Of a stretch of DNA of 64,000 nucleotides, positions 57,171 to 63,345 are shown piece after piece. Below the pieces are notes generated by a model. That model saw only the letters and a list, made by a program, of their open reading frames with translations. It did not search any database and had not been told where the DNA came from. The stretch is from Thomasclavelia cocleata. GTDB lineage: Bacteria; Bacillota_I; Bacilli_A; Erysipelotrichales; Coprobacillaceae. How positions within the stretch are numbered: the stretch's first letter is position 1; each line of letters begins with the position of its first letter. The DNA lies in the NCBI RefSeq assembly GCF_900102365.1, contig NZ_FOIN01000010.1, forward strand, positions 1-64,000, read 5' to 3'. The position numbers were made by a program, and so were the translations under genes.

Positions 57171-57626
57171 CTATTTTTTTTGATTTATTAATCTATTACT
57201 TATTTCTAGCCCCGTTGTTAATATTGCAGGGACATTATATCCTGCTTCTACAAAATTTTCTACAATACTTCTAAGTTCATTTATAGTTAAAGATGCTAAA
57301 ACAAACCAACCTAATAATTTAGTTACACCTAAATCAATTCCTAAAGTCTTACCAATTTCTACAAATGTAATCGAAGCTAAAAAAGCAATTAAAATCATTA
57401 TCCAATAACCTAACTTTTTTAATATTCCCTTAAAACCAGTAACAGAATTTACTTTTTTAGTCATTATAGCTTTCATCCATCCAGTTATAAGATCAATAAC
57501 ATTAAATAATAAAAACAACGCAAATAAAATCCAGTGTTCACCAAAAATAAAGTTCAAAAATACAACTATCCCTCCTACAACTGCATTGTATAAATCAATA
57601 TATTTAAAATCACTTAACGTATTCAT
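57171..57626 (-). CDS. Phage holin family protein (Phage_holin_4 type)
   Basis: The 151-residue protein has three to four hydrophobic segments and the conserved FLLFNVIDLITGWMKAIMTKKVNS and GVTKLLGWFVLASLTINELRSIVENF regions of the toxin-secretion/phage-lysis holin family (PF05105, TcdE-related). No endolysin is adjacent. With a dead integrase close by and tRNA genes on both sides, it is probably a prophage remnant, though it could have been kept for protein release. GGAG precedes the ATG. Confidence 0.88.
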   Translation of the reverse strand: MNTLSDFKYIDLYNAVVGGIVVFLNFIFGEHWILFALFLLFNVIDLITGWMKAIMTKKVNSVTGFKGILKKLGYWIMILIAFLASITFVEIGKTLGIDLGVTKLLGWFVLASLTINELRSIVENFVEAGYNVPAILTTGLEISNRLINQKK

Positions 57627-58425: not shown

Positions 58426-58531
58426 ATGACGTATATTATAATACACCAATTATTAAATAAAAGCAAGGAAATTTTAATGAAAAAGTGTAAAACTTATGAT
58501 ATAATTAAAAGACAAGTGAGGTGATTTAGTT

Positions 58532-60082
58532 ATGTTTTATAAACAAACTGTTGATAATATAAAAGTAGTTATCCTATCATTAGATGGAGGAATATTAGAT
58601 TTAAATCGTCTAAGATTTAATTATTTAAAAAAAATATGTAAAATACATAACTATGATATTACAAAAGAAGAATTTGAAAAATCACTTGGTAATATGCAAA
58701 CTATGTATAATAATTTTCCGATTATCAAAGATATTACTCCAGATGACTTAAATGAGCTGATTGAACGTGATTTGTATGAATATGCTAAATTAAAACCAAA
58801 CTCATTAATAAAAGAAGGAACTGAAGAAATATTACAGTTTTTTAAGCAAAAAAATATTAAAGTTGCTGTGATTTCCAGCCATAAAATAAAACGTGCTATT
58901 CAATACTTACAATTAACCAGATTATATAACCACATCGATTTTATCATTGGTGGGGATAGTAATAATCCTGCTTTACCTGATCCTTACTTATTAACAACTG
59001 TCTTAGAACAATTAAATGTTACAGCAGAAAATACTTTAGTAGTAGCAAATTATCCTAGTTTACTTCACGCTGCTAATCGTAAATTAATGAATGTAATATA
59101 CTTAACTGATTTATGTCCTTCAAACAACTCAATTACTTCCAGGGTGTTTAGAGTAGCTAAAAATAATCTTGAAGTTATTAATATTTTTCTTTTCGCTCGA
59201 TATGATTCAATGGAAATGTATTCACCATTACTTGGTATGTCTAGTGACATGTCTGTTGAAACCCTAGAACAAACATATTATAAATTACTTGAAGAATATA
59301 AGAATGACTCACAGTTAATTGATTTAGTTCGTGATACCTATCATTATTTTTTAGGTGAAATATTAAATAAAAAATCTGTTACCATAAATCCTTTATTATT
59401 TGAAGACGAAGATACTGATAACTATAAAAAAAATCTTGACTCATTAAAAGAAGATGAAACAAGTTCTAATAAACAAGAAGATTTAATAAAGCATTTTGAA
59501 TTTACTGACGAATCAGATGATGATCAATCTGAATCAGTTATAAAATCATCTCCTACTAATAAACAGGTCATTGGTGGAGATCCAAAACGAATTAATGAAC
59601 TTATGGATATAATTAATGGAACTTCAGTATCAAAAAAATATAACGAAGATGATAATAATCTTCCCCTATCAGAAACAATAATTAAAGATGAGAAAATAAC
59701 TTTTACTACTAAATTAATTAATTTTCTTTATACTTTAGCTATAGTTAGTATTGTTACTTTTTCTGGAATGATTGTCTATGTTGCTTTTGAAGATTTTATT
59801 TGTGGTCCAGGAATTATTGCTAGCATTACAAAAAATATAATTGATTTTTATATTAATACTATTTTATCAATTTATATATTTATTATTAATGGACTCCATA
59901 ATTTACTTAGTTTTATTCCAAGTTATAATAGTTTAATCTCAGGAAATAATTTTTTATCACCTCTTGCAATTAAACTAATCTTATTTATTATTTTTAATTT
60001 AGTTATTGTATATATAATTAAATTTGGGTCCATCTTATTAAAAGAAGGGATGGTAGATAATGACTATTCTACAGAAAATTAA
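58532..60082 (+). CDS. Membrane-anchored HAD-like pseudoenzyme
   Basis: Residues 1-210 follow the beta-phosphoglucomutase-type HAD plan: VVILSLDGGILDL, a helical cap, EILQFFKQKNIKVAVISS, LPDPYLLTTVLEQL, TLVVANYPSLLHAANR. All catalytic motifs are damaged: the nucleophile Asp is Ser16, the motif III lysine is Leu, and the motif IV acids are lost. Then come a helical region, an acidic low-complexity linker (about 295-385) and three hydrophobic segments (about 400-425, 435-460, 485-510). It overlaps the PAP2 gene by 23 bases. Function unknown; a binding or scaffold role is likely. Confidence 0.75.
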   Translation: MFYKQTVDNIKVVILSLDGGILDLNRLRFNYLKKICKIHNYDITKEEFEKSLGNMQTMYNNFPIIKDITPDDLNELIERDLYEYAKLKPNSLIKEGTEEILQFFKQKNIKVAVISSHKIKRAIQYLQLTRLYNHIDFIIGGDSNNPALPDPYLLTTVLEQLNVTAENTLVVANYPSLLHAANRKLMNVIYLTDLCPSNNSITSRVFRVAKNNLEVINIFLFARYDSMEMYSPLLGMSSDMSVETLEQTYYKLLEEYKNDSQLIDLVRDTYHYFLGEILNKKSVTINPLLFEDEDTDNYKKNLDSLKEDETSSNKQEDLIKHFEFTDESDDDQSESVIKSSPTNKQVIGGDPKRINELMDIINGTSVSKKYNEDDNNLPLSETIIKDEKITFTTKLINFLYTLAIVSIVTFSGMIVYVAFEDFICGPGIIASITKNIIDFYINTILSIYIFIINGLHNLLSFIPSYNSLISGNNFLSPLAIKLILFIIFNLVIVYIIKFGSILLKEGMVDNDYSTEN

Positions 60083-60578
60083 AGAAATAGATGTAAAAAC
60101 ATCTCATTTTTTCCCAAAATTTTATCATCATAAATTATTAAGCAATATAATGAAATTTATTGCTGGAATTGGTGATTTTGGAATGATTTGGCTACTACTA
60201 ATTCTTCTTTTAAGTCTAAGCAGTAAAACGCAGTTATTATCACAAAAAATGTTAGCAGCATTACTTTTAGCTACTGTTATTGGTCAAGTTACTATCAAAT
60301 CAATTATAAAAAGGAAAAGACCTTGTCACACATACAGTGATGTAGAAATGCTTGTTGCTATTCCTAGTGACTATTCTTTTCCATCTGGACATACTACATC
60401 TAGTTTTGCCTGTGCTACTACAGTATGTTTTTTCTTTCCTAAGACAGGTATAGTATTTATCCTATTTGCCCTTTTAATGGCTTTTTCTAGATTGTATCTG
60501 TTTGTTCATTATTTAAGCGATGTGACTTTTGGAATTATTTTAGGTATTAGTGTTGGTATTATTGTAATGATGTTCTAA
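60060..60578 (+). CDS. PAP2-family membrane phosphatase
   Basis: The 172-residue protein has the three PAP2 signature motifs KRKRPCHTY, PSGHTTSSFA and SRLYLFVHYLSDV, with catalytic histidines, among five to six membrane helices. It probably dephosphorylates lipid phosphates such as phosphatidylglycerol phosphate or undecaprenyl pyrophosphate at the outer face. Its start lies inside the pseudo-HAD gene, so the two are translated together. Confidence 0.92.
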   Translation: MTILQKIKEIDVKTSHFFPKFYHHKLLSNIMKFIAGIGDFGMIWLLLILLLSLSSKTQLLSQKMLAALLLATVIGQVTIKSIIKRKRPCHTYSDVEMLVAIPSDYSFPSGHTTSSFACATTVCFFFPKTGIVFILFALLMAFSRLYLFVHYLSDVTFGIILGISVGIIVMMF

Positions 60579-60580
60579 TA

Positions 60581-60611
60581 AAAACAGCATACTTTTAAAG
60601 TATGCTGTTAA
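60581..60611. terminator. Convergent terminator after PAP2 and CPBP genes
   Basis: AACAGCATACTTT (60583-60595) and AAAGTATGCTGTT (60597-60609) form a near-perfect hairpin that overlaps the CPBP stop codon and serves both directions. Confidence 0.8.
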
Positions 60612-61360
60612 AACATTATATATATCAATATCACTGCAATTAAATTTTTCACCCCATGTAAAAAGATTGGAGCAATAATGTTCTGTCTTTTTTCGTATGC
60701 ATAAGAAAAAGCTAATCCAGCAGTCATATAAGGAATCAATTTTATCCACTCACTCATATCACCAGCTAAAATATAACTATAAACATGTAATAGTCCAAAC
60801 AAAAATGCTGAAATTAAATGGGCCCAAAACACACTTTTTTGTCGAAGCGTATTAAATATTAGTCCTCTAAAAAATAATTCTTCAACAATCGGTGCTAAAA
60901 TTACCGCCTGAAATGTCATTAATAACATATTTGACGATACTAATGTAACAACTAATGTCTGATTAGTTGCTTCACTAGTATTAGCTGGTAAAAGTAAATT
61001 AACAATAAATTCTCCTATATAACTAAATAAATAGGCTGAGCCAATACCAATAGTTAAAACCCAAATAACATTTTCCAATAATTCCTGTTTAAATATTTTC
61101 CAATTTTTTTTAATAAAATCTCTAAATATAATTAACAAAAAAACTGCTGTCGATAATGTAATCAGCACATTAAAATACGTATTAATAGTCTCTGATGTTA
61201 AATTATCATTAACATACATTATATATAGTTTAATTAAAAAATTAAAAATACTTGGTGCAAAATACAAATACCAAGGAAAAAGAAGTATTGTCCCAATTGC
61301 TTTTTGACGATTATTTAATTTTACTTTTGTTATTAAACTCAATTTAACACTCCTATACAT
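60608..61360 (-). CDS. CPBP-family intramembrane metalloprotease
   Basis: The 250-residue protein has about seven membrane helices and the Abi/CPBP motifs EELFFRGLIFNTLR (catalytic Glu pair), HLISAFLFGLLH and a C-terminal FLHGVKN. These proteases resemble Rce1 and cut or modify membrane proteins, sometimes in bacteriocin immunity. Its ATG 61360 overlaps the DUF975 stop; a TTG at 61342 with GGAGTG upstream may be the real start. Confidence 0.9.
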   Translation of the reverse strand: MYRSVKLSLITKVKLNNRQKAIGTILLFPWYLYFAPSIFNFLIKLYIMYVNDNLTSETINTYFNVLITLSTAVFLLIIFRDFIKKNWKIFKQELLENVIWVLTIGIGSAYLFSYIGEFIVNLLLPANTSEATNQTLVVTLVSSNMLLMTFQAVILAPIVEELFFRGLIFNTLRQKSVFWAHLISAFLFGLLHVYSYILAGDMSEWIKLIPYMTAGLAFSYAYEKRQNIIAPIFLHGVKNLIAVILIYIMF

Positions 61361-62198
61361 TATTATTTTCTAAATTTATTTCTTCAAACAATACAGCAAC
61401 ACTAGTTTGCAGTTCAGCAGAAAATAAATAAACTGATAAAGCTGACATCAGTATCTCAATAACCAAAGGAATTGGTAAAAATGCCTGAACAACTGCAGTT
61501 ATTACAATAGTTAAAATATACCAGCCTAAATAAGAAAGATATAACACAAACAATGTTCCTTTATATCCCTTCATTAAATGCGCAGAATAACTCATTGCCT
61601 TAACTCCATAAATTTTATTCTTTTCTAACACATATGGTGTTAACGCAAAAATTAAAGTATACATAACTCCAACAACAACCATAACAGTAAGCCCTAATAC
61701 AACAATTCCACTTATAGAAGCAGCTGCCTGTATAAAAGCAGGATCTTGTAAATAAGCAGTAACATCGTTTGTATAAATACCAGCTTGTGAAAATAACATC
61801 CCTAAATTATTAAACACACTTTCATCAATCACTAACTTTGCAATTAAAAATAGTACTAAACAAATAAGTAGCATAATTACCATTAAAAATGCTGTTTGAA
61901 GAAAATAAGTAAAAAATAATTCTTTAAATCTCTTTAATCCAGCAAGTCCTTCATGTTCAACAGAAATTTCATCTCCTTGTTCATTCACTGCTTTTAAAGC
62001 TGTTACAATATTCCCATGAGAAAATGGTAACATTATTATTGATACCAGCAATGACAAAAATGGTATCATTACCCCTAATGTTTCACTAATATAATTTATT
62101 ATAGTTGTCACTACACTGATAAATATAAAAACAACAATTATATTACTCCGATTTACCAAAACACTTTTTGCTTTAGTTTTAATATCACGAATATTCAT
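61353..62198 (-). CDS. DUF975 membrane protein
   Basis: The 281-residue protein has five to six membrane helices and DUF975 hallmarks: a long extracellular loop after helix 3, then GVKAMSYSAHLMKGYKGTLFVLYLSYLGWYILT. Members are common in Firmicutes and unstudied. GGAGG lies upstream of the start. It is co-transcribed with the CPBP protease, with overlapping stop and start, which suggests a joint membrane function. Confidence 0.85.
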   Translation of the reverse strand: MNIRDIKTKAKSVLVNRSNIIVVFIFISVVTTIINYISETLGVMIPFLSLLVSIIMLPFSHGNIVTALKAVNEQGDEISVEHEGLAGLKRFKELFFTYFLQTAFLMVIMLLICLVLFLIAKLVIDESVFNNLGMLFSQAGIYTNDVTAYLQDPAFIQAAASISGIVVLGLTVMVVVGVMYTLIFALTPYVLEKNKIYGVKAMSYSAHLMKGYKGTLFVLYLSYLGWYILTIVITAVVQAFLPIPLVIEILMSALSVYLFSAELQTSVAVLFEEINLENNNV

Positions 62199-62251: not shown

Positions 62252-62587
62252 CTATTTAATATCCAAACTAGTTTTAATCGCTTGATTAATCAACTGCATC
62301 ATTTTATCATCAATCAATCCAACTTTTTCTCTTATTCTCTGTTTATCTATAGTTCTTATCTGTTCTAATAAAATAACACTTTTTTTCTCCAAATAATTAC
62401 TTTCAATTGTCACATGAGTCGGTAAAGGATTTTTGGTTAATCTAGATGAAATAGGTGCCACAATAATAGTTGTTGAATAACGATTTCCTTTATTATTTTG
62501 TAATACTACAACTGGTCGATATCCCCCTTGTTCACTGCCTACTACTGGTGATAAATCAGCATAATAGATTTCCCCTCTATGTATCAT
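62252..62587 (-). CDS. mazF: MazF/PemK-family endoribonuclease
   Basis: The 111-residue protein is close to Bacillus MazF: RGEIYYADLSPVVGSEQGGYRPVVVLQN, LPTHVTIE and VILLEQIRTIDKQRI. Arg24 aligns with catalytic Arg25; Ser47 replaces catalytic Thr48. MazF cuts single-stranded mRNA at short sites. No antitoxin gene is upstream: a divergent promoter region and a HAD gene lie there. ATG 62587 is chosen over GTG 62593 because AAAGGAG is 8 bases away. Confidence 0.92.
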   Translation of the reverse strand: MIHRGEIYYADLSPVVGSEQGGYRPVVVLQNNKGNRYSTTIIVAPISSRLTKNPLPTHVTIESNYLEKKSVILLEQIRTIDKQRIREKVGLIDDKMMQLINQAIKTSLDIK

Positions 62588-62694
62588 ATTCACAACTCCT
62601 TTATTGCAATATATGAAACAAATGAAATTTTATTACACAAAATGATTTAACTATATAAAAAATTTATGTTAATATGTTGGCTAAGGAGGTAACT

Positions 62695-63345
62695 ATGATT
62701 AAAGCTATTATTTTTGATATGGATGGTTTAATGATTGATACTGAAAAGCTTGCATTTGAAGGATTTCAGTATGTTTTGGCTAAAAATGGATTAACAATGT
62801 CTTTAAACTTTTATAAAAAACTACTAGGTAAACCTATGGCTGGAATTGCTGAATTAATTTATAAAGAGTATGGTGAAAATTTTGATATTAAAAATACAAT
62901 TAAAGAGGTTCATGATTATATGGATGAAATCTTTGAAAATAAAGGTGTTCCTTTAAAAAAGGGATTATTTGATTTATTAAAGTATCTAAAAGAACATGAT
63001 TATAAAACAATTGTAGCAACTAGTTCACAACGTTATCGTGTTGATTATATTTTTAAATTAGCTGGATTAAATCTATATTTTGATGATTCGATTTGTGGTG
63101 ATGAAGTCATTAGAGGTAAACCTGATCCAGAAATATTTTTAAAAGCATGTCAAAAGCTTGATGTTAAACCATCTGAAACTCTAGTTCTTGAAGATTCTGA
63201 AGCTGGTATTAATGCTGCCTTTAATGCTGCAATTAAAGTTATTTGCATTCCTGATCTTAAATATCCAGAACCTGAATTTGCTAAAATGACATATAAAATT
63301 ATGAATAATCTATTAGAAGTGCGTGATTTCTTGAACCAAGGTTAA
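62695..63345 (+). CDS. HAD phosphatase, beta-phosphoglucomutase-like
   Basis: The 216-residue protein has intact HAD motifs: IIFDMDGLMIDTE (Asp nucleophile near 8, acid near 10), VATSS (motif II), RGKPDPEIFL (motif III Lys) and VLEDSEAGINAA (motif IV). The alpha-helical cap places it in the phosphoglucomutase/phosphatase group; the substrate is unknown. AAGGAGG precedes ATG 62695, so the longer frame from TTG is rejected. It diverges from mazF. Confidence 0.92.
   Translation: MIKAIIFDMDGLMIDTEKLAFEGFQYVLAKNGLTMSLNFYKKLLGKPMAGIAELIYKEYGENFDIKNTIKEVHDYMDEIFENKGVPLKKGLFDLLKYLKEHDYKTIVATSSQRYRVDYIFKLAGLNLYFDDSICGDEVIRGKPDPEIFLKACQKLDVKPSETLVLEDSEAGINAAFNAAIKVICIPDLKYPEPEFAKMTYKIMNNLLEVRDFLNQG

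Follow-up and report, generated by a model that had tools for sequence, protein, structure and literature searches.

The stretch of DNA analysed here, hereafter the window, comprises 64,000 nucleotides and corresponds to positions 1-64000 of contig C77 in a genome of 2.96 Mb, from a lineage that we take to be Gram-positive. It contains two overlapping genes on the plus strand, together with candidate transcription signals and three neighbouring genes on the minus strand:

58477-58505, plus strand: promoter-like site, a consensus match (ATGAAA, 17 nt, TATAAT, with TG ahead of the -10)
58532-60082, plus strand: ORF for a pseudo-HAD / J-like / membrane protein of 516 aa
60060-60578, plus strand: PAP2-family phosphatase of 172 aa (Pfam PAP2, E 1.3e-21), catalytic residues intact
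60583-60609, no strand assigned: terminator-like stem-loop 3' of the PAP2 gene (consensus match; symmetric stem, scored on the minus strand)
60608-61360, minus strand: CPBP/Rce1-like membrane protease, a neighbour in 23 of 37 loci
61353-62198, minus strand: DUF975 membrane protein, a neighbour in 21 of 37 loci
62252-62593, minus strand: PemK/MazF-like protein, a neighbour in 23 of 37 loci

An earlier reading made from the letters of this region (the sequence-only reading) had the PAP2 gene beginning inside the preceding one, and both ORFs were found as it described them, with an overlap of 23 nt. Promoter-like sites number 26 in the region against a shuffle mean of 24.3, and hence the one at 58477-58505 is weak when taken alone; its position just 5' of the gene fits. 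Together with the stem-loop at 60583-60609, this pair of consensus matches fits a two-gene transcript. The neighbourhood of the locus appeared conserved across orthologues, not only in the three minus-strand genes listed above but also in NUDIX and RluD genes, each of which recurs near the locus in 20 of 37 cases. Gene clusters that we designate c1 were also observed near the locus in 15 of the 37 genomes (loci L057, L059-L063, L065, L068, L069, L071, L075-L077, L082 and L086). We take the genes of these clusters to resemble CDP-glycerol glycerophosphotransferases, which gives the neighbourhood a cell-wall flavour. A gene encoding a phage-holin-family protein (57171-57626 of the window; Phage_holin_4_1, E 1.3e-30) stands alone between tRNA genes.

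Orthologues of the 516-aa protein are present in 37 of the 43 genomes of the family, with named matches in Thomasclavelia, Faecalibacillus, Stoquefichus, Sharpea and Kandleria, all of one GTDB family that is presumably Coprobacillaceae, while the specific profile of its J-like module (see below) had no match in the 251 genomes of the order that lie beyond this family. The six family genomes without an orthologue comprise three that are less than 90% complete (G016, G023 and G028) and three that are 93-100% complete (G010, G022 and G029). Ka/Ks values of the HAD part fell between 0.06 and 0.15 in all 14 pairs compared, which indicates constraint, and those of the J-like part between 0.02 and 0.21 in 13 of the 14, Ks being saturated in the remaining pair; the linker and membrane parts were less constrained in most pairs. 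As judged from these substitution rates, strong purifying selection acts on the HAD part. The protein has been repurposed and is not in decay. Alignment A1 covers 35 of the 37 orthologues and leaves out G004, where the gene lies in two frames, and G014, the most divergent; A5 has 22 of 24 named loci (L121, a split gene, and L143, an ordinary HAD, being left out); and A6 omits L131. Two other settings for the protein were considered and rejected, namely anti-phage defence, for which PADLOC gave no match, and a phage origin, since only a general HAD PHROG was matched.

The amino-terminal part of the protein carries the following features:

58556-59146, plus strand: pseudo-HAD domain, residues 9-205, class IA with a C1 cap (HAD_2 match, AlphaFold2 model, Z up to 25.3)
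58577-58579, plus strand: position of the nucleophile Asp, here Ser16 (motif alignment, 37 orthologues)
58973-58975, plus strand: position of the motif III Lys, here Leu148 (Lys in none of 37 orthologues and in 20 of 20 paralogues)
59045-59053, plus strand: position of the motif IV acids (Glu-Asp-Ser in paralogues), here Ala-Asn-Tyr 172-174 (orthologue/paralogue alignment)

Pfam HAD_2 matches the 516-aa protein with an E of 2.2e-15 and was found in all 35 orthologues scanned, so that annotation pipelines are likely to label the protein a hydrolase, which they should not. In the AlphaFold2 model, built with 23 sequences, the mean pLDDT is 74 and the HAD part lies mostly above 90; the Rossmann-like core and the C1 cap that mark the HAD superfamily are both present. 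Residues 4-222 of this model align with C1-cap class IA HAD phosphatases at Z 20-25, the best match being the MtlD phosphatase domain 7ocs (Z 25.3, rmsd 2.6, 218 residues). Hence, the protein shares with class IA enzymes such as the MtlD phosphatase domain, beta-phosphoglucomutase and HDHD1 both the fold over residues 4-222 and the Pfam family, but differs from them in having none of the catalytic motifs except the Asp+2 and motif II, in a set of new cap residues and in the J-like and membrane domains fused to it.

In HAD enzymes, the nucleophile, the motif III Lys and the motif IV acids hold phosphate and metal. At the nucleophile position the 37 orthologues have Pro in 15, Ser in 10, Glu in 6, Thr in 5 and Asp in a single one, G019, which matches the named record Eggerthia catenaformis, and the acidic metal ligands of motif IV, like the motif III Lys, are present in none. 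The Asp+2 of motif I (Asp18) and the Ser/Thr of motif II are kept in 37 of 37, a fact that leaves room for some ligand or residual chemistry. Each of the 20 non-orthologous HADs examined from the genus has the full set, from the nucleophile and the Asp+2 to motifs II, III and IV. About ten positions that have newly become almost invariant, most of them in the cap and chiefly within residues 25-78, distinguish the orthologues further: N25, R28, N30, F48, M58, Y59, E78, A122, N187 and N217 each occur in 17 or 18 of 18 sequences, and the same ten positions differ in most or all of the 20 paralogues. In a tree of the HAD part, for which 18 orthologues were drawn from the 35 in A1 and 20 paralogues from search matches, the orthologues form one group with support of 100/100. 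At 62674-63345 of the window, 2.6 kb downstream, lies a paralogous HAD gene of the beta-phosphoglucomutase/MtlD-phosphatase type, which is intact, retains every catalytic residue and makes a useful control.

Alignment and model therefore agree with what had been read from the letters, namely a HAD fold whose order is kept, with Ser16 at the nucleophile position, Leu in place of the motif III Lys and a motif IV that has lost its acids. The further claim that the protein is a pseudoenzyme has likewise been borne out by the motif counts and by the Ka/Ks of the HAD part, and the check for homologues with intact catalytic residues found, among the 37 orthologues, none with the Lys of motif III or the acids of motif IV. 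Single damaged copies do exist: the gene of G004 (L058, contig C164) is in two frames, of 389 aa plus a C-terminal piece, by frameshift or assembly error, and G032 shows a seven-residue deletion in the J-like part. That the whole protein is a local decay product or a sequencing artefact of an ordinary HAD phosphatase is nevertheless a reading to which we give practically no credence, as the substitutions are family-wide, Ka/Ks is low and the gene is retained in 37 of 43 genomes.

What the emptied pocket might still bind is a different matter. The sequence-only reading had suggested a phosphorylated lipid or sugar, which our data do not support, since the nucleophile, the Lys and the metal-binding acids are all gone and, with them, the residues that usually bind phosphate and metal. 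A related explanation would make the protein a sensor, whose HAD pocket accommodates a phosphorylated metabolite or nucleotide, does not turn it over and signals through the membrane domain; the high confidence with which the fold is kept and the universal presence of Asp18 and the motif II Ser/Thr speak in its favour. However, the three sets of catalytic residues have been lost together, the new invariant residues are mostly in the cap instead of replacing those of the pocket, and pocket residue 16 itself varies among Ser, Pro, Thr, Glu and Asp, so that we consider such a sensor improbable.

Between the HAD part and the linker lies a conserved module which the earlier reading had not mentioned:

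59147-59383, plus strand: putative degenerate J (J-like) domain, residues 206-284 (profile evidence; weak fold evidence)
59300-59308, plus strand: position equivalent to the HPD, here Lys257-Asn258-Asp259, with Asp259 invariant and Pro absent (Tyr256-x-x-Asp259 aligned to YHPD)

No clear Pfam family match was obtained for residues 206-284. Pfam DnaJ matched directly in 2 of 33 members (best E 0.025), and the commonest weak match of this region was CPP1-like, in 4 of 33 members (best E 0.028). The case for a J-type origin comes mainly from profile comparisons. When profile A2 of the module, which leaves out G032 and G026 besides G004 and G014, was compared with PDB chain sequences, J-domain proteins made up 23 of the 26 rows, with a best E of 0.008. 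Comparison by hhalign with 10 J domains from the same genomes gave 86.9%, the score lying above 50 of 50 column shuffles, and with 40 such domains 83.0%, above 200 of 200. Of 17 windows slid over the whole protein, the two over the module reached 82-83% against the J profile, and the other 15 no more than 3%. The best J-profile match fell inside the module in 30 of 35 orthologues, mostly at profile positions 4-36, and outside it in the other five, many of the in-module matches being weak; the match is centred on helix II and the HPD position. Searched over the 294 genomes of the order, the module profile reached three places outside the orthologues, with E up to 0.001; the DnaJ model identifies two of them, in G029 and G031 (E 1.6e-4 and 6.1e-4), as genuine J proteins, and the third is in G027 (E 6.1e-4). 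The module is predicted to form three helices, and when its fold is compared alone J domains head both lists, with no Foldseek E below 1 and all Z below 8.

The HPD position reads x-(N/D/G)-D, with Asp259 invariant in 35 of 35 orthologues, and among the 23 sequences inspected the HPD tripeptide occurs in none, Pro being missing at its position in all. The module thus resembles J domains in profile and lacks the tripeptide that characterises J-domain co-chaperones. From these sequence comparisons we consider it probable, with good confidence, that residues 206-284 are a degenerate J domain from which the His-Pro of the HPD has been lost. A membrane co-chaperone whose J-like domain still brings DnaK to the membrane would account for a profile match centred on helix II and the HPD position and for the invariance of Asp259. 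Such a function appears very improbable, given the complete absence of HPD and its Pro among the sequences inspected and the precedent of CJD1, likewise without HPD, which could not substitute for DnaJ in E. coli and for which the reported yeast two-hybrid tests gave no sign of Hsp70 binding (PMC3196505).

A second J protein, of about 200-250 aa and with HPD intact, was also encountered (L174, at C54:120300-122300 of G000, with relatives L175-L184 and L187). Its C-terminus is cysteine-rich in many of the genomes, and in several of them it stands beside an ORF of about 585 aa with a weak FtsA-profile match, which may be an Hsp70-like gene.

The remainder of the 516-aa protein comprises a linker and a membrane domain:

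59384-59701, plus strand: acidic linker of low model confidence, taken as disordered, residues 285-390 (pLDDT mostly below 50; composition)
59579-59617, plus strand: conserved short helical motif in the linker, residues 350-362 (model helix 351-361; Leu357 invariant in 35 of 35)
59702-60064, plus strand: membrane domain with three hydrophobic helices, 391-418, 428-458 and 477-511 (AlphaFold2 model)

Composition and model helices both agree with the acidic linker and three hydrophobic segments that had been read from the sequence. Residues 281-390 contain 27 Asp/Glu against 14 Lys/Arg, and the linker is the fastest evolving part in most pairs; the motif near residues 350-362, absent from the earlier description, is conserved. 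The middle helix, 428-458, is more amphipathic. Charge counts around the membrane helices gave no clear inside/outside signal, and the HAD part is expected to be in the cytosol. A search for relatives of the membrane domain with profile A3 (G026 left out) against PDB and Pfam returned only scattered weak matches, which we took as chance.

The coupling to a PAP2 phosphatase that had been proposed from the sequence stands in part. A close PAP2 orthologue lies directly behind the pseudo-HAD gene in 19 of 37 loci, and its start overlaps that gene by 11-32 nt in all 18 loci where this could be measured, the nineteenth being a split gene outside the overlap count. Close PAP2 orthologues (E below 1e-80) were found in none of the six family genomes lacking the pseudo-HAD, and G010 is without both genes while four congeners have both. 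PAP2 enzymes have an outward-facing active site, whereas the HAD part is expected on the cytosolic side; the superfamily is characterised by the motifs KxxxxxxRP, PSGH and SRxxxxxHxxxD. The partner gene carries these motifs: K80, R87-P88, S109, H111, S143-R144, H150 and D154 are kept in 19 of 19 PAP2 proteins, with the Gly of PSGH replaced by Ser in 4 of the 19. The adjacency, the conserved overlap, the absence from the six genomes and the invariant residues indicate a genuine and old association of the two genes, yet not a general one, since 18 of 37 genomes keep the pseudo-HAD without this PAP2.

These same observations bear on the possibility that the protein is a dedicated regulator or assembly factor of PAP2, in which the dead HAD would sense or recruit a cytosolic partner and so control the membrane phosphatase. 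Adjacency, overlap, co-absence and the intact catalytic residues of the PAP2 enzyme are what such a role would lead one to expect. The 18 genomes with the pseudo-HAD alone imply, however, that PAP2 cannot be its general purpose, and 41 of 43 family genomes have BacA, which represents a different family of undecaprenyl-pyrophosphate phosphatases; on balance we regard a dedicated regulator as unlikely, if still credible. The presence of BacA also led us to reject the idea that PAP2 serves as the sole undecaprenyl-pyrophosphatase.

Since both domains are conserved although catalysis and HPD have been lost, the simplest role to assign to them is protein binding, and the combination of lost catalytic residues and a worn-down J-type domain suggests that the protein probably holds other proteins at the membrane instead of performing catalysis. 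We therefore lean, with some reserve, towards a membrane-tethered, non-catalytic scaffold or adaptor, a role that we infer from the absence of catalysis. In such a scaffold, an enzyme module and a co-chaperone module would both have been turned into protein-binding surfaces. A flexible acidic linker bearing one short helical motif would suspend the two domains in the cytosol, and the conserved three-helix domain would hold them at the membrane. In roughly half of the lineages the overlapping gene would supply a PAP2 lipid-phosphate phosphatase, probably from the same message, and this enzyme would be the best candidate for a membrane partner where present; elsewhere the protein would work without it. 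More tentatively, it is conceivable, though we would not call it probable, that this pseudo-HAD and pseudo-J protein is a lineage-specific membrane organiser, which holds a cell-envelope or divisome complex on its cytosolic side by protein contacts alone and has PAP2 as an optional client.

Several membrane proteins with degenerate J domains offer parallels to the proposed scaffold, in their way of working and not as members of one group. ZipN has been described as tethering FtsZ and organising the divisome (PMC6391411), and ZipN/Ftn2 of cyanobacteria and ARC6 of chloroplasts, as reported, likewise have a cytosolic J-like domain, are membrane-anchored and work by protein binding. They have no HAD domain and another architecture. 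CJD1 possesses an HPD-less J-like domain and three transmembrane segments and binds ARC6 through the J-like domain, with no Hsp70 binding in the tests reported (PMC3196505). CJD1/CPP1-like proteins would thus share with the window protein, as far as they have been described, an HPD-less J-like domain combined with three membrane segments. Unlike it, they lack a HAD domain; the CPP1-like match is far from significance, and the long acidic linker is a feature of the bacterial protein. Pam16, which regulates its partner J protein Pam18 (PMC3806816), provides a further described case of a degenerate J domain in a membrane-bound complex, but Pam16/Tim16 belongs to the mitochondrial import motor and is without HAD, and Tim14-Tim16 (2guz) reached only Z 5.4 in the fold list. 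A role as FtsZ tether filling a vacancy in the divisome was also considered and found no support: of the 43 family genomes, all 43 have FtsA, 42 have EzrA and 42 have SepF, so that no such role is visibly vacant.

In the literature on HAD pseudoenzymes and pseudophosphatases and on DnaJ-HAD transmembrane fusions, we found no published account of this protein. Should the J-like reading be true, it would be, after ZipN/ARC6, CJD1 and Pam16, another membrane protein to make its protein contacts through a worn-down J domain, this time in a lineage taken to be Gram-positive. Many pseudoenzymes called from single sequences turn out to be decayed copies. Here the catalytic loss is fixed across a bacterial family, and selection holds the fold, the new cap residues and the J-like module, which makes this protein a clear example of an enzyme converted to another use, in bacteria that are common in the human gut.
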